Assembly (NCBI RefSeq): GCF_000165425.1
Contig: NW_001799444.1
Location: 310,001-374,000, forward strand
DNA: 64,000 bases
From: Paramecium tetraurelia
Lineage: Eukaryota; Ciliophora; Oligohymenophorea; Peniculida; Parameciidae
Direction: 5' to 3'
Shown here: positions 8,452-63,823 of the stretch, piece after piece
How positions within the stretch are numbered: position 1 is the first letter of the stretch
How the letters are laid out: each line of letters opens with the position of its first letter
Translations under genes and position numbers: made by a program
Notes under the pieces: generated by a model
Database searches by the model: none
What the model was told of the DNA's origin: nothing
The model's input: the letters and a program-made list of their open reading frames with translations, nothing else

Positions 8452-11073
8452 TCATTGATATGGAGTAGTGCTCTAAACCAAATTTATTGACTATGGGAAT
8501 TTGAGTTATAATTATTTTTAAACTGAATCTATATTAGGTCTTTTGTGAGGTATTGGATCAATCATTTATGAAAGTAAATTTTTTAATTCTTCTCTGATTT
8601 GTAATTATTGAATTTCAAATCGTACTTATTGTTAGTTTTGGCAATAATTAAAAATTGATTATTATATTTCCCTTATAGATGAACCTTGATATAGAATAGA
8701 AATGAATACCATTAAATAAAGGAGATTATTTGAATATCTCAAAGAATAGACATCCTAAAGACCAAATGTCAACAGAAGCTGTATAATCATCTGATCCATT
8801 GATTATCTCTGGTGCTTAATACTGTGGGGATCCTACCATTTTTGTCTTTCTTAAATTTTATTCCCCATGTTTTACTAAACCAAAATCAATTAATTTGTAT
8901 ATGGAACCGACTTATATAAAGTTTTCAGGTTTAATATCTCTATGAATAAGTCCTAATTTATGAAGAAATGCAATTGATTAAGCAATCTAATATTTAATAT
9001 ATATGAATTACTTATTAACAAATTTATTCTTTTTATTATTATGGTATTCTGTTTGTTTTTAAAACAGAATTCATATCTTTAATTCCAAGTTCCATAATCA
9101 ATACTTATTACTTTTAATATTCAAACCTTTCATAGACTCTAATCAAATTGCTTTTTTGAAATGCAGTTTATTCCTTATTTTTCTAGTAATCAATCAAATA
9201 ATCAATAAATTAGAGTTCTTGATCTTTCATTTTTTATTAAATTTTCAATGCAACTTCTGTTGAGTAAAATGTTTCATTTACTGCTTTTGCTTAATAAACA
9301 GCTCCTTCTCCTCCATCTCCTATAAGTTTACTTAAAACAAAATAACGTTTTGGAAACTACCCTGTTGGAGCATCAAAAATTGAATTTACTTGCTATTGAT
9401 AGTTATTAAGGTAATCTTAAATAAATTTAATAACTTAATTTAAATCAATGCTTGAATTTGATTCATCAATAGATTAAAGCATTGGTAGAATTAATTATTC
9501 AAATTGAATCTGTTTGATTTTATTTAAGATTTGTTCTTTCTAATTTAAATAATTACTTATGTCCGACTAAATTTGTCTTTTCTAATTAGCCTATAAGGAT
9601 CTACTTCCAAATAACACACTTCCTTAAAGAATTTAATAAAATAGGCAGCCTAAACGGAATTTATCTTTTTATTTTGCATCCAACTCAAGAAAATCTGTTT
9701 ATGGCTGTTGTTCAGGTTAGTATTTTGAAATTGAATGAAATTTGGCAAGTTTCCAATTATTATTAACTTTAAAATATTAATCCAAATGAATATCTGTGTG
9801 ACAATAATTATTTTAATGAAGATACTATATGGACTTAGAAATCTATCAAAAATAACCTATAATTAAATACATCTAATATTATTAAAAGTTTTTCTTATAA
9901 GCTTAAATTGTTCTTCTGATAAAGATATTCTTACAATTCAATTGATAGTGATTCCATAACTAAATATCCTTTATTATCAATAATATGATTAACTTAAATA
10001 TTAGTATGTAATGGAATGTCTATTTTGTTATCATGTTAGTGGCTTCTCAACCAATTTATAAATTCTTAGTTTATTGTACCAATCCCATAAACTACTAATG
10101 TATATTCTTTTTAATTCTCATATATTGTATAAAATTTATCTTCTCTATTTAAGTAGTTGAAGATATTTTTTCCGAAAGGAAGTTAATTATAGATATTTTA
10201 AATCTCATCAACAACATCTTTTATATTTGGTCTATTTTCTGGTTTATTAAGCATTTTTATGATTAGAATTTTCCAATGATTATCAATTTTATCTAAATTT
10301 ACTTCTTCTAAATACTTTTCTCTGTTTTCTTTAAAACGTTTTTGTTATTTTTCTATCTCTTTATGGTTTTTCCCTAAAAAATACATCAAAGAATATCAAA
10401 CCTTTAAAAAATGGCTCATTCTAGAATATTTCATAAAATGTGCAACCAAGAGACCAAATATCAATTTCTTGAGAGTATTTTTCCGTTTTGGTTTCAGGTG
10501 CTTGATATTATGGAGTGCCAACAATTGAATCGAGTCTTTACTAGATCGTCTTAGATTGTTTAGTCAATCCAAAGTCAGTTAACTTGAATTAATTTTAAAA
10601 CTTAATAAAATTTTCTGGTTTGATATCTCTATGAAGATAATGATTATTGTGAAGAAATTGTATTGATTTTGAAATCTAATTATTAAAATCAGTCATACTT
10701 GAAAACATATATCTACTTTCTCGTCATAATTTAATGTCTTCGAATCCAGAAATTATTTTAAGGAACATTATCCTAATTCCATAACCAAATATGTTTAATT
10801 ATTATACATTATACGTTCAAAAATTTTAACAAGAAACGATTATTTACCATCATCTTTTTTTTAGTATTCAAGAATCCAATCAATTAATTGTTCTTCTCTT
10901 TCTTTAAATTCTTTATATAATTTAATGGCAACATTAGTTTGATAAAATGATTAATTTTCAACTTTTGCTTCAAATACTTCCCCCTCAATCCCTTGTCCTA
11001 TTTATTTTAAAAGTATAAAACGCCTTTGTTGAAATTCTTTTGCAGGGGATTCAATAACTTGATTAACAAACAT
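8452..11073 (-). CDS. protein kinase with three tandem kinase-like domains (kinase-pseudokinase-kinase)
   Basis: 830 residues; ATG at 11073, TGA at 8452, five introns (23, 28, 28, 25, 25 bases) leaving exactly 831 codons. Domain 1 (about residues 15-270) has a glycine-loop-like IGQGIEGEVFEAKV, the ATP lysine in NVAIKLY, HRDIKPENF (~139), DFG in LTDFGLTK and GTPQYQAPE, so it looks active. Domain 2 (~300-520) keeps the fold but has HTDIHLDQYF (~398) in place of HRD...N and KFHS in place of DFG, so it is probably inactive. Domain 3 (~535-825) again has a glycine loop, VALKI, HRDIKPENF (~675), DFG in LIDFGLVKHG and GSPQYQAPE. Domain 3, with its introns, is repeated in inverted orientation in the gene at 18790. 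The substrate is unknown. Confidence 0.85.
8471..9406 (-). repeat. left arm of a 936-base inverted repeat
   Basis: The reverse complement of this interval matches 19631-20566 with no difference that I could find over the segments compared, and both arms are the same length (936 bases). The arm covers the last kinase domain and its two introns. Homology stops abruptly: outward of the arms the flanks differ immediately (…GAGCACTACTCC against …GAGTGCTGGTAA at the C-terminal side). The arms lie about 10.2 kb apart. Confidence 0.9.
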
Positions 11074-12330
11074 ATTTTTCGATATATATATTTAATTATT
11101 ATAGAATTATGAAAATTATGAATGTTATTTTCACTATATTGAAAAAATCATTTTGATTTTTTTAATTTATATTATAAATTTTATCTGTTAATGATTTAAA
11201 ATTGAGTTTATTATGAATTTGAATTGAGTTTAAATAAATCCATTATTTAAATATAAGAAAACAAATTTGTAATAAATCTATTATAATTCTAAAGGTAATT
11301 GTGTAGTAATTATTTATGAATTTTGGTATTTAAATTTTTATAACTATTATTTAGTATTAAGAGGTTAGATTTGAATTATTAAAGCAAAGTAAATCTGGAA
11401 ACTTATGTTGATAATCAATTTCCTATAATCTACAAAAGCAAGATTTTTGCTTTGTGTAGTTCTTTTCAATGAAAATTGATTATTAACTTGCTTATTGATA
11501 AATGAGTAGTATAATCAAATAGATTCTTTTCAAGTGATTTTAGATTGGTTTTAATCTCTCTCCTAGAAGTTATGGGTATGAATATTATTCAAGAGGTTCA
11601 ACCTGAAAAATATCAACATTGTTAGCATTAAACATGAATGATTCTAATAACGGATTAGTACTTACCTATTAAATGAACTAATTTAATAATTCAAGATTGA
11701 TCATATATTTTGGTAAATCCGATTCATTTCCTCAATACAATTTATAAATTATGAAATAATATTATGAGAAAAGAGGAGCAGAGTTGAAATACTAGAGTCA
11801 GATATAACCCTCGATAATGATAGGCTTCCATTACACTTTTACTTCCTATTACTTATGGGTTTTAGAAAATCAAATTACAAATAAATTGGATAATCTAAAT
11901 TTATTTTGATAAATTAATTAGATAGATTTTTAGCTTGATTTTCTAACCTCTTAATTTATCTTTAATAAATTTGAAAAGCATGATAATTTGATTATGGCAA
12001 TAATATAATTTTTTTGTCAATTATTATTATTGAGAATTAGTATCGCTAGAAAAAAATTAAACAATAAAGTCTAAATCAATAGAGAAACACTTTTTTCCAT
12101 TCATTTATTAAAAACTAAATGAAAAAATTCTGTTTATTATTAAAGAACAGCGTATGATTTATGATTGTATTTATATATTTAGATCTTCCTCTCAGTACTT
12201 AATTAGTTTTTATGAATTTTGTTAAACTGATTAGCTTCATATTATAAATAATTATGTAAAGAATGTGATATTTCAAATAATAAAATATCAATAGAGATAG
12301 ATTATATATTTATTTTTGATAATTAAAGAG
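11074..12330. other. gene-free spacer upstream of two divergent genes
   Basis: AT-rich DNA between the start of the three-kinase gene and the start of the surface antigen. Short protein-like runs near 11560-11870 are interrupted in all frames, and I could not connect them by introns. At 1.26 kb this is long for this genome and may hold the control region of the surface antigen, but I see no specific element. Confidence 0.5.
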
Positions 12331-15300
12331 ATGATTATACTTATATTAATTTAAGTAGTCAACTCATAAGTTTGTAATTGTGGTTAACTTAAATCTCAGT
12401 CAGATTGCAAGTTAAATACGATTTGCTAATGGAATAACAATAGTTGCAATGAAAAATAAAATTAAACAATCGGTACATACTGTAAGTAATTTGATCAATC
12501 AAAATGTACAACAATAACAGGATGCATGTATTACGATAGTTAATGTTAATAATTTACAGGATGCACTTCATTTGAATACAATACAGATGAATTATGCAAA
12601 AGTGTTTCATCATCTTGTATTAGTAACGGAGAAGTATGTATAGACTTGGGAGAATGCATATCCTATGTTCAAAAGAGCACTTGCAAATTAGATTTAAGAA
12701 ATTAATTATGTTATTGGGATGGGTAAGCATGCTCATTAGCTGATGCTTGTTCAAAATTACCTTATACTACCGATGAGGCTTGTAGGAAAGCGAAATCAAC
12801 ATGTACTGTAAACTTTGCAGAGAAAGCTTGTATGGACGGAGGTAATTGTAAGGATATGCAAAAACAATCACAGTGCTTTTGGAATAAATCATAAACAATC
12901 AAGTGCAAGTGGATATCAGGGAAATGTTAAGATTATATATGTATGAATGCTCCTACTACAATGACAACAGATGCAGAATGTGAAGCATATTTATCGGGAT
13001 GTACAACTCAAGCAGGAGGAGGTTGTACATTTAGAACCACATGTGTCAAAGCATCAAATCAAAATGCATGTGTAAGTGATTCAAATGGAGCCAAGTGCAC
13101 TTGGATGGATACATATTGTAGTGATAGATATTGCTCTTAGGGATCAAAGTCATTTACAACTAATTCTCAATGCGATTCCTTTTTGAAAGGATGTATAGCT
13201 AAACCTTAAGGAGGATGTGTGTAAAATAAAGAATGCGATGCAGCTTTATCATAAGAAACCTGTTAATAAGATATTCACGGAAATCAATGTGTTTGGAATA
13301 AATCTATTTGTTAATTGAAAATATGCAAGAATGCTCCAATTATTGAAAACATAGACCATAATTATTGTGAATAATTTTTGAGTTCTTGTACTATGGTGGC
13401 CGGTTAATGTGCCACCAAAACCTGTGAAAATGCAAGTCTTTCTATCACTAATTGTAGATAATTTCTAAGTGGATGTGTTTCTAAACTGAATGGAGGATGT
13501 CAACGAGTAACAACATGCGCTTAAATCATAAATTAGGATGATTGTTTGAAGGATTCTAAAAATTAATTATGTTTTTGGTTTAATGACAAATGTATAGATC
13601 AACAATGCAATGTCATTTAAAAACAAGTCAATCAAGAATGCAGCTCTATTCTATAAAATTGTATAGATGATAAGACTGGAAATTGTTTAGATTATTAATG
13701 TTAAAATATTTGGAATCAAGGTTAATGTACTGTTGACTTTTACCAATCATAATGCACATGGAAGCCTGTCTGTTATCTAAAAACTTGTTATAATGCTCCA
13801 AAAACATTAAATACTCATCAGTTTTGTAATAATTATTTGTCAAGTTGCACAGTAAATAAGGATAAAAAAGGATGTATGGAAATTACTAATAATTGTGAGG
13901 CCTATAAAATTCAGGAATCCTGTGTTAAGAAATTAGATAACTCTTAATGTGAATGGTCTAATGAAAAGTGTTTATCCAAATCTTGTGAGACTGCTGATAA
14001 AATCAAATACGTGAGTATGGAATTATGCAATGAGTATTTATCTGGATGTGTTGTGTCGCCAAGTTTCAAAGGGTGCATGACATTGCCTCAAAAATGTCCA
14101 CCTAGATTAATTGATGTTGTCTGTCTCTTTGATGATTCCTGTTATTGGTATTAAGATGAATGTATTGAAAAATCCAAGACTTGTGATAACACTCCTAAGC
14201 CATTTTGCAATTTGGGATGTGTTTGGGCAAATGAAAAATGTGTGTAAAATCTATGTAATGTTATACCCAATCAATCTCATCAAATGTGCAATGCTATAAA
14301 TAATTCTTGCACAGTCAATGAAAAAAGATCTGGCTGCATAACTTTACTGCAAAAATGTTCAGATTATAAAACAAATTATTAATGTTAAAAGAGTAAAACA
14401 TAAAAATGCTTTTGGAATGGTACTGAATGTTTAGAATTTTAATGTACAGATATTCCTGATGATACAACTAAATTTGACACATTTGAAAAATGCCAAGAGG
14501 AATCTTCTACTTGCACAGTTATTCCTGTTTTGAATTAAACTGGATGTTTGAGTAGATTATCAAAATGTGAGTTATATACATTAAATTAATGCACATACAC
14601 ACTTGGAGGTAAAGAATGTATTTGGTTGGATGGCTTATGTTAACAATTAGATAAATTAAACTGCTCAAGTATTGTAGACTATTCTAATTGCGATGCCATA
14701 TTGTTTCAATGCAAATAATCAGGAGAAATTTGTGTGAATAAACTATGTAGTGAGATTTTAGTTGAAGATTTTTCATTAACTTTTTCGAAATGCCAAAGCT
14801 ATAGTTAAACTTGTTCAATTCATGCTAGCTTAAATAGTTGTATAGATATATAAAATGATTGTAATCAATATTTAATAGAAGAACATTGTATTCAGAGTAA
14901 AACAAGTCTATGTCACTATTTCAATAATAAATGTGTCAATCGTAATTCAATTTACGGGTGTTCTACTGTAAAATTAGAAACCTATACAGATCTTAAATGC
15001 AAATAGTTTAAACAATTTTGTAAACTTAATTCTACATCTAATGGATGTGCAGATACTGGATGCATACTCTATTTTGGATTGACATCCTTGGCTGATTGTG
15101 AAGGTGTTGATAATACATGCACTGTGAATTCAGCCAGGACTGGATGTACTACTAAAGTCCAAATGTGCTCATCTTTAGATTAAGATAATTGTATAAAAGC
15201 ATAAGAAGGATTTTGTGCTTGGGTTTCAACAAAATGTTAATTATTTAAGGATAATGATTGCTCATAAATAACATTATTCTAATATTCTCATTAACTTTGT

Positions 15301-18300
15301 AATTAAGTTAGCGCTAAATGTTCTGCAAATGCTTAAGTGACTTAATGTATTACAATGACTGATGATTGTAGTTTAAATTTATAATCTAATTGCTTTTAGT
15401 CAAAAAACTCTTTTTGTTTTTATAATGGAACCACCTGTGCTAATATAAGCACTATTACAAGTTGTTCAGACATTAAAGTTACTTCTAAAGTCATATGTGA
15501 TAGATATGATGGATCCTAAAACCCTCTAGCTATATGTACTTTTGTTGCTGGAAATTCCAATTGTATTCCAAGAACATGCTAAAATTATCCTGATAATAAA
15601 TTCTCACATTAAAATTGTTCAACTTGGTTGGCTACTTGCACATAAAACATTGCAAAAACAAGTTGTATCACAATGGAACAAACTTGTGATTTGTACATAG
15701 AAGGTACTTGTTACAAAAGTTAAGATTCATATTGTTAGTTTAATAGTACTTGTTTAAATGTGCCAAGTACATGTAATCAAATAGCAGCTGACGAAAGATG
15801 CACTTAGAATTCTCTTTGCATGATAAATAATACTCCAAAATGCGTTGATAAAACATGTGAAAATTATTAGAATAGTGCTGGCTATAATCATAATGTTTGT
15901 TCTTCATTTTTAGCAACATGCACAGTTTTGAAGGATTTGACTTAATGTATGACTTTACTTGATGATTGTACAAAAAATTTAATTTAAAATTAATGTACAA
16001 AATCACTTTCAGGAGATTGCATTTGGCTTTAAAATAAATGTGTAGCTGCAACTTGTGACACTGTTACTGATTGTGAATCTTATAATTGTATAGTTAAAAA
16101 ATAGGCAGGTTGTACAAACTTATTCGAAAATTGCTCATTATATCCAACACATATATAATGTAAGAAATCAATTAATAAGATTTGTTATTGGAATGGTAGT
16201 ATATGTGTAGATTTGACATGTGAGAACTTAAAAGGAGTGGGTTTTAATAGTTTTAGTGATTGTAATACTATTTTAGACAGTTGCACAATAGATGGATCTA
16301 AGGTACAATAATGTATGACAAAGAAAGAATGTTCATAATATTAATATGAGATTGAATGTAGTAAAGATGTTTTGAATAAAGAATGTTTTTGGAAGAATAA
16401 TGCTTGTTATTTAAAATCATGCAATGTATTAGTGTTAAGTTAATACAGCCATGTTACTTGTATGGATTAAATAATTAATAATAAATAACATACATGTACT
16501 ATTAATGACAATGGAGCTGGTTGCATTGAATTAAAGTAGTGTTCTTCATATAAGTCAGAAAATAATTGCATAATAGATATAGCAGGATAAATGTGTGGAT
16601 GGAAAAATGAGATTTGCAATATTAAATCGTGTTAAACAGCACCAATAAATGTAAATACTCATGAAGATTGCTATAAGTATCTAAATGGATGTACAATTAA
16701 TGCTACAAATGATGGATGCATAAAGATCCCTGATTAATGCTCTTTAATGAATGAATCTTAATGTAAGACTGACAATTGCACTTGGTAAGATTCAAAATGT
16801 TAAGACAAGACTTGTTCTAATGCTCCATAAGACTTAATTTCTGAATCATAATGTAATGCATACCTGAAAAATTGCGGATTTGTTAATAATTAGAAATGTT
16901 TCTAATTTTAATGTGAGGATGTAGAATTAAAAAGCCATCAGGAATGTTATGATAATTACAAATGTACTAGCAATGGATTTAGATGCACTGCAATACAAGA
17001 ATAATGTTATTATTACACTACTTCAATTAGTTGTGTAATTGATGTAACAAAAAGTCCATGTACATGGGTTGAAAAATCACTTGAATGTTAAATCAGAAGA
17101 TGTGATAATGCTCCTTAAAGTTTGATTACTAATGACTCCTGTAATATTTACTATCCTAATTGCACAACAAAGGCAGGAGGAGGATGCTAGGAATTACAAG
17201 AGTTGTGTACATCATATACAGTCTAAGAGGGTTGTTTGAAAACCCTTAATAAAACTCAATGTGTTTGGGATTCCAATTAATGTAGAGACAAATCATGTGT
17301 AGATTTATTTGGTTCCACTCATGCTTAATGTAATGGTTAGGACTCCAATTGCACTATAGGTTTATAAGGCAAATGTGCAATTTAAAACAATTGTTCTACA
17401 AAAGTAAATTAAGAAACTTGTATAGTTGGCGCTGATGGTCCTTGCTTATGGATCATTAAAAATAACATAGGCCAATGTTATTAATATAGTGATTGCTCAT
17501 CATTAAAATGGAAAACTGACCAAGATTGCAAATTGATATCGCCTTTATGCACAACAAATGGTGAAAATTGTATTGCTGTTCAAAAGTGTTCATTAAATAA
17601 AATTTCTGGATGTTATACTGGAATTGATGGCCCTTGTATCCTCACTATAGATAGTAACAATATTAAGTCTTGTTAATTGTTTAAAAATTGCACCCAAGCG
17701 AAATTTACAATTCATGAAGATTGTTAACTAGCTAATATAAATTGTACCACAAATACTATTGACTCTTGTATCGCTCTGAATGATAACTGTTCATCGTACA
17801 AACTGGCTGGATAATGTAAATAAAATAACAAAGGAATATAATATACCGAAGATAATAATATTAATTCAACAGGAATTTGTGTATGGGAATCTGGTTTATG
17901 TAGAGATCAATCTTGTTAAGATTTGAAAGCCAATAACCATGATGAATGTTCCAAATAATTAATCTCATGTACTTATAATTCTATTGGATGCATCTCTATT
18001 GCAAAATGTTCTTAATATCAAGATCAAAATACTTGTTTATCTGCTGTTGCATCTGATGGAATATGTATCTGGGATAAAAGCATTTGTAGAATTAAACTAT
18101 GTATAGATATTTTTGAACCAAAATCATAAATTGATTGTCAATCAAATATGAATTCCTGCATTTATGATGAAGCTAATAAAATATGTGTTCCAAAATCAAA
18201 TTGTTCATCATATAAATCTGAATCATTATGTAACTAAGGTAGCATTACTGGATCATGTGTATGGTAGTCCACTAATTGCATAGATTTTACTTTATGTAAT

Positions 18301-18726
18301 ATGGCAAATTCATCAGAAACTGTATGCAATTCAAATTCTTTTTGTAATTGGGTCACCAAAGTATCAAATCAGCAAAATTCAACTAATACAACAACACAAT
18401 AATGTGAAAGTTATACTTGTGCGACATGGTACAATACTAAAAAGAAATGTGAACCATTTCTATCATTTGATAAATCGACATATAATTATTGTAGCATGAA
18501 TAATAATACTTGTGTTTCAATAAGTGTGTCATAATTCGATTAAACAAATTGCTATTTATTCAGTAAATATACATACACTTGGGATTAAACACTTTAAAAT
18601 TGTGTGATTTGTCAAAAAGCAATTAATAATACTAATAACAATACAAATAACACAAATTAAACTATTGACTAAAAGGCCTTCATTTTTAAGTTTTACATAT
18701 TAATAATTTTGATTATTTTTTATTGA
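12331..18726 (+). CDS. giant cysteine-rich surface antigen (immobilisation-antigen type)
   Basis: A single uninterrupted ciliate-code frame of 2132 codons (2131 residues) with no intron. It starts with a hydrophobic signal sequence (MIILILIQVVNSQV). The whole body is a dense, regular array of cysteines in modules of roughly 65-80 residues, often with a conserved tryptophan (C..W..) and segments such as CNAYLKNC or CIEKSKTC. Near the C-terminus it turns Asn/Thr-rich and ends in a hydrophobic tail (FKFYILIILIIFY), which fits a GPI-attachment signal. This is the plan of Paramecium surface antigens, the GPI-anchored coat proteins of cell and cilia of which one is expressed at a time. The modules here are diverged rather than near-identical repeats. 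The stop lies 63 bases before the downstream kinase gene. Confidence 0.9.
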
Positions 18727-18789
18727 TATAAATTTTATCATAATTGTTTATTAAACTTAAATATAATTCTATAACATAATAAAAAGAAA

Positions 18790-20957
18790 ATGTTGGATCA
18801 TACTCATTAAATTTCAATACCATCTTAAGAAAATCCAAATAGGAACTATATATCTACACAGATAATTTCTTAAGATGGAGAAACAGTCGTTTATGAAGGG
18901 AAACTAATAGAAAATGAAAAAGAAATAAATGTAGTTATAAGGTGTTAGTGTAACAATAAAGACTCTGAACTAGAATTTATTGATTGGCTAATCTCTTAAT
19001 AAAAACAGAATTAAGCAAGAGAGATAATAAAAATTTATGAAAAAATTGAAAATAATCATAAAACATATTTAATCACTGAATTCAGCAGCCTTAAATTATC
19101 AAACTATTTAAAAGAGAATAAATAATTGAGTCGACTTTAAAAAATCGGTATTTGTAATTAAGTATTTAATTTTTGTTTTTAATATAGACTTTGGATGTTA
19201 TTTTATTCTTGCATCATAATTAGTATTTTAATGGAAATATCTTATCTGAAAATTTTGTACAAGTTGGAAATATCTTTAAATTAGCAAACTTTGGATTCAG
19301 GAAATTCTATTAAAAGACTGATGAAAATTAAAAAATAATTGATATACAATCTTTGGGATGTTTATTTTATGAAATTTTCAAAGGAGAAAAATTGTTTTAA
19401 GGTAAATGGTTTAGTTATTTAAGGGTAAATAGAATTAGAAAGCTAAAAATATAATGACTTTAATTTTAAAGGTATTGAATTTATTCCAAAAGTCAATGAT
19501 ATCTCATGGCAATAGATGTCAAATTTAATTTTAGAGATGATATAAAAAAAAATACAAGATATCTAAAAAATACAAGATGGCTTGAATAATTTAAGAGAAA
19601 AATAATTATAACCTCCTTTGCCTTAATTTTATAACTATCAATAGCAAGTAAATTCAATTTTTGATGCTCCAACAGGGTAGTTTCCAAAACGTTATTTTGT
19701 TTTAAGTAAACTTATAGGAGATGGAGGAGAAGGAGCTGTTTATTAAGCAAAAGCAGTAAATGAAACATTTTACTCAACAGAAGTTGCATTGAAAATTTAA
19801 TAAAAAATGAAAGATCAAGAACTCTAATTTATTGATTATTTGATTGATTACTAGAAAAATAAGGAATAAACTGCATTTCAAAAAAGCAATTTGATTAGAG
19901 TCTATGAAAGGTTTGAATATTAAAAGTAATAAGTATTGATTATGGAACTTGGAATTAAAGATATGAATTCTGTTTTAAAAACAAACAGAATACCATAATA
20001 ATAAAAAGAATAAATTTGTTAATAAGTAATTCATATATATTAAATATTAGATTGCTTAATCAATTGCATTTCTTCATAAATTAGGACTTATTCATAGAGA
20101 TATTAAACCTGAAAACTTTATATAAGTCGGTTCCATATACAAATTAATTGATTTTGGTTTAGTAAAACATGGGGAATAAAATTTAAGAAAGACAAAAATG
20201 GTAGGATCCCCACAGTATTAAGCACCAGAGATAATCAATGGATCAGATGATTATACAGCTTCTGTTGACATTTGGTCTTTAGGATGTCTATTCTTTGAGA
20301 TATTCAAATAATCTCCTTTATTTAATGGTATTCATTTCTATTCTATATCAAGGTTCATCTATAAGGGAAATATAATAATCAATTTTTAATTATTGCCAAA
20401 ACTAACAATAAGTACGATTTGAAATTCAATAATTACAAATCAGAGAAGAATTAAAAAATTTACTTTCATAAATGATTGATCCAATACCTCACAAAAGACC
20501 TAATATAGATTCAGTTTAAAAATAATTATAACTCAAATTCCCATAGTCAATAAATTTGGTTTAGAGTGCTGGTAACAACTAAGCAGGAGAACAAAGAACC
20601 AAGCCTATATTTTAAACAACTACTGAAGTCAGGATTAATGACAACAAAAATAACGAAAAACAACAAAAATATAATGAAAACATTTCTAAATTAGACTAAA
20701 TAGTTAAAGATATTTATGAACAATATTTTGATAATTCTAATTGGGATTGTTAAAAAAAAATAGCAGAAACTCAATAGAATTTCAGAGACCACTTAAACAA
20801 TTAAATTATTCAATTAGGATAAAAATCCCTTCCTAATAGTTTAGGATAGTCTGTTGGATAGGTATAAAACTAAATTTTTAATAATTAATTCCACCCAAGC
20901 ACATATTCTCCTTAGCAATAAACAAATATTATTAACAATTTTCATCCTGCATAATGA
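18790..20957 (+). CDS. pseudokinase-kinase tandem protein
   Basis: 686 residues; ATG at 18790, TGA at 20955, introns 19162-19187, 19402-19432 and two of 25 bases in the shared part, leaving exactly 687 codons. The N-terminal kinase-like domain (~20-240) has lost its catalytic residues: HFNGNILSENF-like FNGNILSENF (~136) stands for the HRD loop and NFGF for DFG. The C-terminal domain (~262-557) has glycine loop, VALKI lysine, HRDIKPENF (~408), LIDFGLVKHG and GSPQYQAPE, and should be active. A Gln/Asn-rich tail of ~129 residues follows. The C-terminal domain appears identical at DNA level to that of the three-domain gene at 8452. It starts 63 bases after the surface-antigen stop, on the same strand. 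Confidence 0.85.
19631..20566 (+). repeat. right arm of the 936-base inverted repeat
   Basis: Matches the reverse complement of 8471-9406, same length, no insertion or deletion. It includes two introns (GTAATTCATA...ATTAG and GTATTCATTT...ATCAAG), whose identity is unexpected if only protein sequence were conserved. Confidence 0.9.
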
Positions 20958-21480
20958 TGAGTATTTACATAGATTATGTTATTAATGTACAAGAATATAT
21001 ATGAATATTTAAAAATGTCTTAGCTTTCATATATACTTTAATAAATTCTAGGGGTTTAAGTAAATTTAAATTCTTTGTTTATTTTCAAGTGTATTCTTCA
21101 AAACCTGTGTAAAGCATTAATTATATTAGATGATTAATAAATTACGTCATTTTTATAATGACAGATGGATATTATATATTAATAGTTCTTTTGAGAGTGA
21201 TATATTTTTAATGTTTCTTGAATTATAAAAGCTAATAATGAAGAATTAAGCATAATTTTAAAGGGAATGAGGTTAAAGACCTATCGATATATTAATCCTA
21301 ACAATGATAAGATGCATATATGAATTTAAAAAAATATATATATGGCTATCAAAATCTAAGTCAGAGAGTACCAATCTTTTTAATTATTAAAGTTTAGTTG
21401 CAATTCATTATAATAAAATAAGATTGAACTTTTCAAATTTTTAATAATAATTAATTTTAAATTTAATATTGACTTATTTA
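20958..21480. other. AT-rich spacer
   Basis: Nothing recognised. It lies between the stop of the kinase gene and the degenerate C-terminus of the MORN pseudogene. Confidence 0.55.
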
Positions 21481-30995: not shown

Positions 30996-31150
30996 TGAGG
31001 ATTGATTTGAGGGTAGTGTAAAATTTAAAAGGTATTTTTTAAAAAATATTTAGCAAAGAAAATGAGGAAAGTTTTTATTTAAATAAAGAAGGAATTACTC
31101 AAATTTAATGAGTTAATTCGATCCGTTTTTAAACCAATATTAAAATATAG

Positions 31151-32328
31151 ATGTGAAAGCTAGCCATCTTGGCATTAGTAGTTACAATAACAACTGCTAA
31201 GTTCATTGACATTCATACAACATTGGCTCAAATTAATGCTAATCCATTCGGAAATGTGGTGTTATCTGCAATTAAGGCTCATCTTTAAGCCTAGACTCCA
31301 GCCAATGAAGTTAACATGTTGTTGAATGCTGTAGATGCTGGTATTGTTTAAGACTAAAATGATCACGATCATGCTTTTGAGTTGGATACAACAACTAACA
31401 ATAGAGTAAGGTTTTTATTAATTGTCAGATAGTAGAAGACTTAGACAAAGAAATCTTGTATCATTAGAATTAAATAGCAGCGAACACATAATTGAGAGAC
31501 GACACAATTGAATCACTTGCTGTTTCTGAAGAAGATATCAGAGTTACTATTCAAGATATTGCAAACATTGAAGCCACTTATGCCAGGGAAGAAACCACAA
31601 GAAATCAACAACACGAAACTTTTATTGCTAAAACTACTGCTATTGATGATGTTATTGATGCTATCGATGACGCTGCTAAACTTATCTAACATTTAAGTTT
31701 AGGTGCTTCATTTGCTTAAATAAAGACTAAATTCGACTCACTCCATAAGAAGTTATTAGATAACACATCACATACTGCTCTCTTACAAGTTTTATTTTAT
31801 AATAATTTAAAAGCCCGTCATCACAGCTTTGACTGAACTTGCTACTCATGGTGTCAACTAAAAAGCTTTGACTAAAATTGCCCAACTTTTGAGCGAAATC
31901 AGATAATAATTAGTCTAAGAGAAAGCAGCTAAGACAGTATTAATATTTATAAAATAATTTAGGATGTTGAAGAAAGATAAGCTGCCCACTGGGCTGAATT
32001 TTCAGTTCATCTAGCTAATGAACATACGAGATTAGGCGAAAGAAAAGCATAATTAGAAGTCTAAATATAAGAATAAAAGGATACTATAGAAGATGCTATC
32101 TCATGGATAGAATTCCAAACTTTGGAATTAGAAAATAGTGAAGAAAGACTTGCTGGATAATAAACATGGTTTGCTGTCTAATCCCAAATATATGAAACTT
32201 AAACTGCTGAACGGTATTCAATTATTCTATTATGTAGAACTGCTTAATAAGAAATTATTGACAGACTCTAAGAACATATTAGTGAAAAATTGTCAACTAC
32301 TGCTTAATTTATTGCAAGCAGAAACTGA
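31151..32328 (+). CDS. trichocyst matrix protein (TMP family), in-frame TGA at codon 2
   Basis: Three introns (23, 25, 26 bases) leave exactly 368 codons from ATG at 31151 to TGA at 32326. The sequence has the TMP plan: hydrophobic leader (KLAILALVVTITTA), then long acidic helical heptads (LDKEILYHQNQIAAN, AREETTRNQQHETF, EERQAAHWAEF). Codon 2, however, is TGA (ATG TGA AAG CTA), the only stop of this genetic code. No other in-frame ATG lies before residue ~45, and upstream ATGs are out of frame. Either this is a very recent loss, or a sequencing error, or initiation differs. Everything downstream looks intact and under constraint. It diverges from the TMP at 22823. Confidence 0.75.
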
Positions 32329-32462
32329 TTTTATTATCAATATCAATATTCATTAATATTTTTCCAAAAATAATTAACAAAAATAATTTTAATATTTCAT
32401 TTTACATTTCTTATATTCTACCCAATATATTCATAAATATATAAACCATATAAGTTATTTTT

Positions 32463-58248: not shown

Positions 58249-61200
58249 TCAGACTTTGCTTTATTAGGAAATTTAAAGATATTTGAATAAATATTTGATA
58301 ATAGTTTCTGCCATATTTTTATTTGTATTGATGGAATGTAAGTTAGGTAAATAGCTCTAGAAGATTTTGATCATTAAATTTAGATGGCAACTAAGTTCAG
58401 GAATAATCAAATGAATTTATTTCATTCTATAGTTTTTTAAAATATCCACTTCTTTCAGTTTGCAAGGACAACCTTTGGGATAATTATCATCAAAACTGTG
58501 ATATTTGGAGTGACCATGAGGAGGAGCCTATGTTAATAGGATAACTATTTTTTGAGAATTTTTGTTGGACCAAGACAATTATTATTACTCGTGCAGTCCA
58601 TCAAGTACAGCATTAGGATAATCTGATATGGCAGTGGCCTTTTTTGGTTTGACATCCTTGAGTTTTGATAGTAGAGTAGCAGAATCTGTGAAATCACTAA
58701 GGATGAATGTAGGAGAGGAGATTTCTTTATGAGGATGATGATCATGATACAAAATGATTGCGAATTTGGCCTTGCCTGAATTAAATTCTCCCTTGATACT
58801 ATTACAAATAGATAACAATTTAAATGCGATTTGGATATTCTATTCATCTGTCCAATCTATAATCAAAGCAATATTGATTGATTTAATTTAATGAGAATTG
58901 TAGCATTCGAACTTGTGATTCATAGTATTGATACCTTTATCATGCCATGCCAAATAATTACAGAATTTGTTACATGTCTAACATTTGGCATTGCATTTTG
59001 AAATCTCAATTCTTTTACTACCTCTGATTGGTTATTCCCAGCCCAGGATTTCCCAAAACTATTTGCAGAGAACATGATCTAGATTATCTGAAACATGGAC
59101 AGCCTTATAATATTTGGAAGTCTTATTAAGTTGTTATTGATAACAAAGAAACTCATCAACACATTCTACTGCATGACTATGTCCTCTACCTAGACGAATA
59201 CAGTATTCATCACATGTTTCAGGTCTACAAAATTAGATATTTTCATCTTTCTCGTCCAATTTAAAACATGATTATTAAGGCTCTATCACATTATGATATA
59301 TCGTATGATGAAGATTCGTGTGACCTGATTCTAAATAACAATAAGCTTTACATCCGGGACATTATTGATCACACAAATGTTTCCTATTTGAACAAGCATG
59401 TCCTAAATCATGACTGTTTTCTCCTATTGGAATTAATTTAAAACACTTTTCTTTCCTTCTGACCTACTCATAAATTGTCTATCCATATAATGAACCTGCA
59501 TTAGACTTCCACATCTTCACTCTCTTCACATAACCATCAACTGTGCATATCCCAGGCAAATTGCATAATTTATCACATTAATGATGACAATTGCAAAAGT
59601 GCTCATTCTCTAATTCATGAGAGTGTTACTCTGAACACTGTCTTTAACAACCCAACGAACATGATTTATTACAATATCTCAAATTGCACATATGTTTATG
59701 TTCCACAAAAGGATCTTGAGTACATTGTTCAGCACAATATAGGCAAGTCTCTTAACACACATGTTTACTATAACAATAATGCAATGAATTATTGGAATGA
59801 CCAATCCTCAGTATACATTGACTCTAACATAATAGACATTCTTTATCACATTAATCATCTTTTAAACCTTTAGAAATATGTTCTCCAAAATGTGATTATA
59901 ATAATTCACAGTTCTTCTCTTCACATAAATGAGTATCACTCCAACAGATGTGTTACTTATTAAACTACTAGATCTACTCTTATTCTTTATTCACACTCTC
60001 CTATAACTCTATCATATTATTTAATTTCTTGATCCTCCCTTCTACATGATATATCTTCTATTGTATTTCCTTCAAAGCTGAAGCTCTCTAAACCATTGTA
60101 CGATCTCCCTTAATCCTTGACAGACTTACCTGTAATTCTTATAAACTTAATCTTTCTGCTGCCTCAAATTACTCCAAATCTGCTCCATCCTCCAAATCTA
60201 ATTGCTTCTAGATCATTTGGATCTTGGATTTCTTTTTCTAAATAATAGCTCTCACTTTCTCAATCTTAGTTCCATTCTTGCTTAAATGTCCATTATATTG
60301 AGTACACAATGCATAACACCTACTACATGTTTATCCACATAACTTATAAACATGTAAATGCTATTTTAACTCATTTTCACAATCTAATAAGATATTCTAC
60401 TTCATATCTCTATCTAACTCATATATTGGGACTAGTTTTTATTCTATCTCCCTAGATATAATGCTTATGATATAACTAATTCTTTTATTTGCAAATGACT
60501 AAATCAATTTATCCACTCTCATAAACTTTTGCATAAAAGCAGAGTCCTATTCAATATTAACTCTTACGATATCTTATGCTTACTCCAACAATTTACTGAA
60601 ATTATCTTCAATCGTCTGAGTTAATACTATTTATTATGATATATTGTTGCCATCCTCCTTCTTAATTATGTATGATGGCAATTCCAACCAATAGATATTT
60701 GACTATTCTTTTAACTTATGTATTTAATAGTTCAACTCATAATCCTAGACATTCCTAGTGTCTTTTACAGATAACTACAGCAAGGTGATCTTCATTGATG
60801 TAAATAGTGACTAAGCATCCTACCACCTGACAGTGTTTTTTGCATTTTCAAGGATTTACTCCCTGATTTGATTTACGTCTCTATCAAATTGTTCTAATTC
60901 AAAATAACTCATTAGTTGAGCACTCACTCCATTCTTCAACAATTACTTAAGCAATTCATTATTAGATGAATTAATTATGGAATCCATTTGACCATCTAAT
61001 TCCTATTGAGCATTCTATGAACTAGCTTGATAAATGTCTCTCACCAAAATCATAAGTCTGCTTTTGAATAATTGGTTGCCTTTCAATCTAGTATTGGCTT
61101 CTATTAGATTATCAAAGAGCTCATTCAAATGTCTATCATAAGAAGAACATTGATTGAATATTGTCAAATCACTTATTGCTGTTAGAAAAGACAATAGAGT

Positions 61201-63823
61201 AATTTCCTCTATATTATTTCTCCTTTATCCAAACAATCCTTCACAATCCAAAATTAGAAATTAATGTCCTTGCAATTAAACTTAACTACACCAAATCCCA
61301 TCTGTACACCTCGCTGATGAAACTCCAAATCTAATACCAAAGATTTAATTTAGCAAATAACTCTTACCACCAGATTGCTTACCCAAAATACTCACTACAT
61401 AAATAGGCTTCTTGTAATCATCTAACAATTCCTCTATCATTCCAAAGGATATCTATTTCAACTATCTATCAATCTAAATACAATCAAAATTTTAATTTAA
61501 TTTGTTCAATCCATCACTTAACACTATTAATCTCTTATATTCAAATGTACATAATTAGATCGGCACTCTTGATGATAATACATTAAGCAATGCTCTTGAA
61601 TTTACACTTTTTATCTCAAACACTTCCTGTATATGTAATGTTGAATATTTCTACAATTAGATTTTGTAAAAACAATCCTAAATAATTTCTCCGCATTTTT
61701 ATGAACAATAAAAGTTACTTTGAGTGTCAACAACATCTAACATGCTTGAGTTCTTGCCATACACTATAAATGATTATTTGATTAAGTCCAAAATGTAATT
61801 GGATGATTGTTTAAGGTAATTCTGATTGCTAGTCAATTTACTCTTCTTATTAAAGTTTTCCAATTGATAGAGTTCCTACTCATCTTCATTTTTGGCCAAA
61901 AGGATAAAACTATCGTATTGGTCACTAAATATGTAAATCTAATCTTATTAATATATTGATCTAAATTATATTGATGAAATTCTTGTATTATTAAAATCAT
62001 ATATATCTACTGATTGGATTTTAAATAATAAGTAAAACTTGCCTGATCCGCATACGATTAAGTTGTAATAGTCAGCATCAAATTCCTTTTCATTTACGAA
62101 TCCCTCCTCATCTTGATAACTCTACAATTATTGAATAAATTCTTAATCATTAGCTGACCATTTGTATACTTTCTTGTCATCTGACAACAATAAAAAACAT
62201 TCATACTCCTCAGAATAACTGTATTATATTATATAGATTGTCTCTTCCAATTCTATCACTCTTTCTGTGTCTATGCATTCCTTATCCTTATTCAAGGTCG
62301 AAATCACAATCCTCTTTGGCAAATTAAACTGATATAAGGTTTATTACTCTAAGGCATAATAAAAATAAGGATTATTTAAGTCAGTGTAAATCACAACCAA
62401 CACAGGTTTCCTGTTTTCTTATAATAAATATACATGATAACAATTTTTCTTAGATTCTACCATGATACATTTCATTATCAATAGATAGTCACTCTACTTT
62501 CCTTCATTTAAATTATACAATTAAAAGAAGTCAATCAATTAATAACTATGATAATTTTATTATTAGAATTTAGTTTCCTTCTCCTTCGAAATATTCATGT
62601 CTTTGTCCAAAAATTCGATTTTCTTAAATGTATTGTCCATATTTCTAAAGATCTTAAATCTCTATAGTTTCATCTCCACAATGAATTCTTGACCCACTCC
62701 TTATTCTATCTCAATCTTCTCCATTATCCACTTAATCTTTCTGTTCACAAAATCCTACATCTTTGAAAACTCTCTATTGATATACTTAATGACAATTCTG
62801 ATCAATTTAGCTAATAATTCCTTTGATTTCATTCGTATGTTGGATGTCTTGACCTCTTTGATCAATTCCGGACCCTTCAGCACTTCAGTATTATCTTTGA
62901 AAGAATTCAGTTTTCTAAAAGCATGATTTAAGAAGAACTTAACCAATTTTAAGAAGTCGAACTCTTAAGGTGAAAACTTCAACTGCAATTATTAATATAA
63001 ACCATTTTCAACACTATCTTTGAAATGCGAGAAATAATGAGTCATTGAAAACATCACATCCTTATTTATTTTTTAAACATATTTTCTTTCTAAGATTGGA
63101 TTCGGGAATTCTAATTCCTCGTTTAATCTCCCAAATAACATGATGTTCTTCACCTAGTCTTAATAATAGGATTCCACTAGCTTAAAATACTCCTCCTATT
63201 TTAGATCATAAAATAGTATAGAGTTCTACGAATTCTTATAATATAAGTTATAATTTTAGATTTGTTTTATGGCTAATTTCTACTAGACTTCAACACAACG
63301 ACAACTATTAGAATTAATTTCTTCCGATTAATAATTCTACATTTTGTTCCTTAAGAGTTGACTATCCTTAATCGGAATCCATTTCTGAAGTATTTTTTCA
63401 GTCGGTAAGATAATAATGTTCTAGCATAAATCAATTAAAATTCTATTTCAAATAAATTAAATACCTAAATAAATTAGTTTCAATTGATTCCACAACTTAA
63501 TCAACCTTTTTATTTTCAGGTATTAGATAACAGAACACTAATAAACTATCCAATTTGATCATCCCAATACAGGCTTAAGTATGATTCGATAGTTCAACAT
63601 CAAATTAAAGGTTAGCATTGTATCTTGTTGTCATATAATTAATTATTGTTTCTAAATATCCGTAGAGTCCAAGAATGTTTAGGGCTTTATCTTAATCAGA
63701 CTTTAATTAATTTAATAGTTATTTAATGTTCGATTTAATTTAAATCTTATCTTCGCTATACTCTTCAGTAAGATCTTTTTAAATTGTAAATGCCGTCTCA
63801 AAGTAAAAGGGCTGAGAGTTCAT
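58249..63823 (-). CDS. VLIG-like very large GTPase with Cys/His-rich region and VWA-like C-terminus
   Basis: 1850 residues; one 22-base intron (63443-63464), exactly 1851 codons from ATG at 63823. The N-terminal ~800 residues are helical and of unknown fold. A G domain follows: P-loop GKQSGGKSYLLNQIFGI (~810) with VSSARCTDGIW, then DCEGLFGQRR (~850, G3-like), as in interferon-induced very large GTPases and URGCP (GVQSSGKS...FGL.F.VSSGRCTRG). A long coiled-coil arm follows. Residues ~1320-1620 are a zinc-finger-like Cys/His array (CDKECLLC, HVCQETCLYC, HMCNLRYCNKSC, FCNCHHQCDKLC). The end (~1645-1850) resembles a VWA domain (IALIIDWTDEQN, AISDYPNAVLDGLHE, KIVILLTQAPPHGH) with an altered metal-site motif. 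Cellular role unknown. Confidence 0.8.

Follow-up and report, generated by a model that had tools for sequence, protein, structure and literature searches.

A single catalytic kinase module of 936 bases, introns included, has probably been copied recently from one kinase gene to a divergent, inverted neighbour, by ectopic gene conversion. The window analysed here is a stretch of 64,000 nucleotides from Paramecium tetraurelia, corresponding to C182:310001–374000 (contig C182 has a total of 456,726 bases), in a genome of 69 Mb assembled into 231 contigs. In the window, TAA and TAG encode glutamine and TGA is the stop, as in the ciliate code, and the introns are tiny; together with the surface antigen gene, these traits led us to take the genome as macronuclear. 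The models for the two kinase genes, A and B, were read by hand from the sequence, with inferred introns, and their junctions may be off by one residue. The features of the region are as follows:

8452–11073, minus strand: gene A, with an intact-looking kinase module (A1), a degenerate kinase-like module (A2), arm A, a TTPYQ end and a TGA stop (reading frames; Pfam Pkinase, PF00069, in two stretches in A1 and A2, E=7.3e-49)
8471–9406, minus strand: arm A of the inverted repeat, the third kinase module of gene A (identity to arm B; Pkinase PF00069, E=6.3e-47)
12034–18726, plus strand: Paramecium surface antigen gene, a 2230-aa open frame delimited from stop to stop, with the start codon not set (Paramecium_SA, PF01508, E=1.2e-177, 22 stretches)
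18790–20957, plus strand: gene B, with a degenerate kinase-like module (B1), arm B and a C-terminal tail (reading frames; Pkinase in B1, E=1.6e-11)
19631–20566, plus strand: arm B, the second kinase module of gene B (identity to arm A; 72.8% DNA identity to a collinear module on contig C203, 685 aligned bases)
20567–20957, plus strand: C-terminal tail of gene B, approximately 130 residues (reading frames; DNA search)

Arm A matches the reverse complement of arm B at 936 of 936 positions, in an alignment free of gaps, as the earlier note on this DNA had claimed in describing reverse-complement arms of equal length without mismatch. The BLAST match between the arms grows to 939 bases with one mismatch and then ends. 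In the global alignment of the arms with 200 bases of flank, which the same note had proposed, the flanks were 55% identical upstream and 53% identical downstream, and 416 of 500 and 422 of 500 shuffles, respectively, scored at least as highly as the real flanks; the similarity of the flanks is not above that due to composition. Each arm contains two putative introns of 25 nt (9011–8987 and 8709–8685 in arm A; 20026–20050 and 20328–20352 in arm B), assigned from GT...AG and reading frame, and the identity extends through both of them, also as proposed. No differences were found between the arms at approximately 184 synonymous sites and 50 intron sites (divergence below about 1.3%, 95% upper bound), and these sites are as identical as the coding sites, as in a conversion tract. 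The arm pair was the sole self-match in the 64-kb window (megablast scoring, word size 15, dust on, E<=1e-10), and the next best DNA match to the arm, among the matches listed in the 69-Mb genome, was only 70% identical (C203:277340–278223). Chance is excluded as the source of the identity. With the ~1.3% bound and a substitution rate of 1.94–2.44 x 10^-11 per site per cell division, as stated in PMC11334263, a hand calculation gives an age for the arm copy of less than about 3 x 10^8 divisions; this is a loose limit, since mutation proceeds so slowly.

The rest of the two genes is strongly divergent, in agreement with the earlier note: the upstream modules A1, A2 and B1 share 30–35% protein identity, and the complete identity of the arms is thus bounded, by flanks at the level of shuffles, within otherwise divergent homologous genes. 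The tract corresponds to a single kinase module, and the suggestion in that note of a recent gene conversion or copying of one domain alone is supported by these limits. The usual kinase catalytic motifs, HRDIKPEN, DFG and APE, are kept in the arm and in A1, and are not kept in A2 and B1. The arm protein used in the Pfam search and in the module alignment contained one more glycine at the second intron than the scripted splice. In gene A, the arm is followed by five codons and the TGA, with no tail. In a genome search with the DNA of the gene B tail (query 20570–21060), the tail matched itself alone among the matches listed. The two genes are transcribed outward, A leftwards and B rightwards, so that the arm is present in the same sense in both mRNAs, and in the hand-read models the reading frames are open across all four arm junctions.

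Over the parts compared (C203 outside 283–293 kb), matches in collinear order link contig C203 to the window at 1.5 kb (C203:269690), 7.8, 20, 21.5, 22.8 and 34–43 kb, and up to 64 kb (C203:323132), and this contig is the apparent partner of the window from the last whole-genome duplication. An age of approximately 320 million years is cited for this duplication in the review PMC11334263, where the uncertainty is called large. At the place and on the strand of gene B, C203 carries a two-module kinase gene (modules C203_1 and C203_2) that ends in a tail, at approximately C203:276.45–278.8 kb, the second module being the one that is 72.8% identical to the arm. The tails of this gene and of gene B gave no alignment above shuffles. 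No counterpart of gene A or of the antigen gene was found at the matching place of C203, and the approximately 3 kb between a TTL-like gene (PF03133) and the kinase are filled by other open frames, with no remnant of either gene (best tblastx E 0.03). C203_1 aligned better to A1 (z 32) than to B1 (z 24). As a guide to a past inversion of the spacer between the arms, C203 gives no decision: C203_1 is nearer to A1 than to B1, and the tails of B and C203 are not alignable. Contig C165 also shares genes with the window (69–85%), perhaps through an older duplication.

In a tree of 25 module tips, the arms grouped with C203_2 (ultrafast bootstrap 82), and A1, A2, B1 and C203_1 formed a separate group (93), within which C203_1 was placed weakly with A1 (54); the values of 82 and 93 fall below the 95 usual for the ultrafast method, and most of the rows are fragments. 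The module alignment was restricted to modules with at least 120 aligned columns; three of its 24 rows were removed for the tree (the fragmentary A1, a duplicate C135 module and one C177 module) and four hand-read modules were added. Identities inside the A1, A2, B1 and C203_1 group were 22–35%, versus 100% for the arms. The grouping and these identities together suggest that genes A and B parted long ago and that the arm was copied recently. Gene B is likelier to be the donor and gene A the recipient, because the arm groups with the C203 module at the place of B. The phylogeny favours B through this grouping; the N-terminal modules do not resolve the donor, and C203_1 is nearer to A1. The better alignment of C203_1 with A1 and the unalignable tails also count against gene B as the strict partner of the C203 gene, and C203 is the one partner region on which both direction and mechanism rest. 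Copying from B to A nevertheless appears to be the most likely direction.

Near-identical modules of this kinase family were also found elsewhere in the genome. Contig C96 carries another inverted pair (953–1552 and 5943–5339; 97.4% identity over 609 aligned bases), with one mismatch in the last 481 aligned bases and differing mainly by small gaps in the remainder; no antigen match was found in its 3.8-kb spacer. A direct pair is present on C135 (8072–8986 and 11983–12897; 915 bases at 99.3%). Another kinase module has four copies at approximately 99%, including C135 7386–9026, C42 679–2302 and C96 1–522; the C42 and C135 copies are 99.3% identical over 1,627 bases, and the C96 copy is at 99%. 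Several of these copies lie at contig ends, from base 1 in C96, within 8 bases of the end in C135 and at 0.7–2.3 kb in C42, and they may reflect either recent copying or redundant contigs. Redundant contigs may explain some of the near-identical copies, because several of them sit at contig ends. A broader view would be that this pseudokinase-plus-kinase subfamily exchanges its intact catalytic module again and again between inverted or direct neighbours, its degenerate modules diverging meanwhile. Such a modular system of gene conversion would maintain a circulating supply of fresh catalytic domains, and the macronucleus might hold the enclosed DNA in both orientations; we regard such a system as decidedly unlikely.

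The surface antigen gene occupies the spacer between the arms. Its frame, with approximately 0.96 kb up to the start of gene A, lies wholly inside the spacer. The best other match to the antigen protein, among those listed in the genome, was 37% identical, and antigen matches were found on at least 12 contigs in a genome-wide search in which the best 21 of 198 candidates were scored. The nearer contig end is approximately 128 kb away from the gene, and no telomere repeats were seen in the outer 10 kb at the contig end. The antigen protein had no match in 18 other genome stretches (167,906 bases, mostly chosen for their kinase matches and including the C96, C135 and C42 module copies), whereas a control antigen locus gave six. 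An antigen-flanking inverted repeat as a general feature therefore received no support from these stretches. Since no antigen match was found near other copies of the kinase module and the control was positive, the antigen gene is most simply seen as a bystander, and this is probably its position between the arms.

The event that we favour would have begun with two old, divergent multi-module kinase neighbours in opposite orientations, approximately 10 kb apart, and gene A would recently have received from gene B a copy of one catalytic module with its introns. The most likely route would be ectopic conversion between the inverted arms, the conversion tract having presumably run until unrelated sequence was reached at both ends of the module. 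The main rival is a duplicative insertion, with a whole extra module pasted at the end of gene A and no old module replaced. Boundaries at the module ends count against conversion in that they are also compatible with a whole module having been inserted into A, the tract comprising a single module between unrelated flanks. The number of modules is three in gene A, versus two in gene B and in the C203 gene, and the tail-less end of gene A, five codons past the arm, is also consistent with an insertion. However, both B-type genes end in a module of the arm group, so that gene A may well have possessed such a module already; replacement would also make it easier to copy in frame and at the right place. 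We consider insertion unlikely and conversion the most likely explanation. It is quite unlikely that the exact identity was made by the assembler, from slightly different copies or by the filling of a gap in one copy with reads from the other. One published set of Paramecium macronuclear assemblies is described as relying on 99%-identity overlaps and on gap closing (PMC8354472), and another as made from short reads with SPAdes (PMC10195154); the near-identical kinase modules at contig ends suggest that assembly may struggle with this family. If the window was assembled with 99% overlaps, copies less than about 1% apart could appear identical, which would change the age of the event and not its existence. 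However, the window contains no N, the frames of the hand-read models are open over the four junctions, and, unlike an assembly duplicate, the two arms lie on a single 457-kb contig, each bordered by unrelated sequence of its own. The collinearity of gene B with its C203 partner, moreover, continues across the module, and a collapse would require copies already ~99% alike, so that the biological event would remain.

The earlier note had also raised a role for the repeat in antigen expression and its relevance to small-RNA-guided silencing, and neither has positive support. In an antigen switch, recombination between the arms would invert the 10-kb spacer and alter the expression of the antigen gene. 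Perfect inverted repeats can, in general, support inversion, and the ancestral orientation is not settled by the sequence. However, a flip would carry the antigen gene along with the ~0.96 kb that separates it from the start of gene A, and the swap would be confined to the ends of the two kinase genes. The partner region on C203 has neither gene A nor the antigen gene, and an inverted pair of the same kinase family exists on C96 with no antigen match in its spacer. Furthermore, the position of the gene differs from that of the expressed antigens of P. tetraurelia, described as subtelomeric in PMC9788069, a source that also gives the caveat that macronuclear chromosome ends vary. A switch of this kind is very improbable, and the bystander position of the antigen gene remains our most likely reading. 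The inverted arms could also be a source of double-stranded RNA silencing the kinases or the antigen gene, and the knock-down of RNA interference components is reported in PMC9788069 to co-activate subtelomeric antigen genes in P. tetraurelia. The geometry of the locus weakens this claim, however, because A and B are divergently read, both mRNAs hold the arm in the same sense and could not pair with each other, and a hairpin would need a single transcript of approximately 12 kb spanning the antigen gene. We consider a small-RNA source highly improbable. RNA interference directed through the arm stretch would be expected to hit both kinases. A conspicuous repeat next to an antigen gene does not have to involve the antigen.

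Copying of a single module, as seen here, is an event of a kind already known in Paramecium, a genus for which the literature describes conversion among paralogous genes as common (PMC10195154, PMC11334263). The conversion of ohnologs in the P. aurelia complex, as presented in these sources, resembles the present case in the recent homogenisation of duplicates; however, it concerns whole-genome-duplication pairs and blocks along paired chromosomes, rather than a single internal module in inverted neighbours on one chromosome, and here the C203 partner is still approximately 28% different. Recombination of TPR and WD40 repeats in Paramecium, inferred from multi-copy IESs in PMC3464196, similarly involves the expansion or recombination of domain-sized repeats, whereas the present copies are of a protein kinase domain, in two genes and inverted. 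The palindromes of Y chromosomes also have inverted arms held similar by local conversion (PMC3403216), but here there is one pair of 0.9-kb arms with a 10-kb spacer and no sign of repeated conversion. The best matches listed in our literature search included nothing on inverted kinase repeats in Paramecium, and a search on Paramecium endogenous siRNA, inverted repeats and serotype returned nothing relevant. The locus provides a clean example of a module copied between inverted neighbours, in a genus whose mutation rate is very low.

In DNA searches covering 48,391 window bases beyond the region of gene A, the antigen gene and gene B, the listed non-self matches reached at most 90% identity over at least 100 bases, a rough baseline, part of it obtained without the window's own contig and one search, in which the best 38 of 114 candidates were scored, having missed a known match. 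The stretch 31117–32348 had 12 further matches (77–79%) on 12 other contigs and corresponds to a conserved multi-copy gene. At 58249–63447, on the minus strand, a 1732-residue open frame matches GTPase families: the URGCP-like and RHD3-like matches fall below the Pfam cut-offs, and the MMR_HSR1 match lies slightly above its own.
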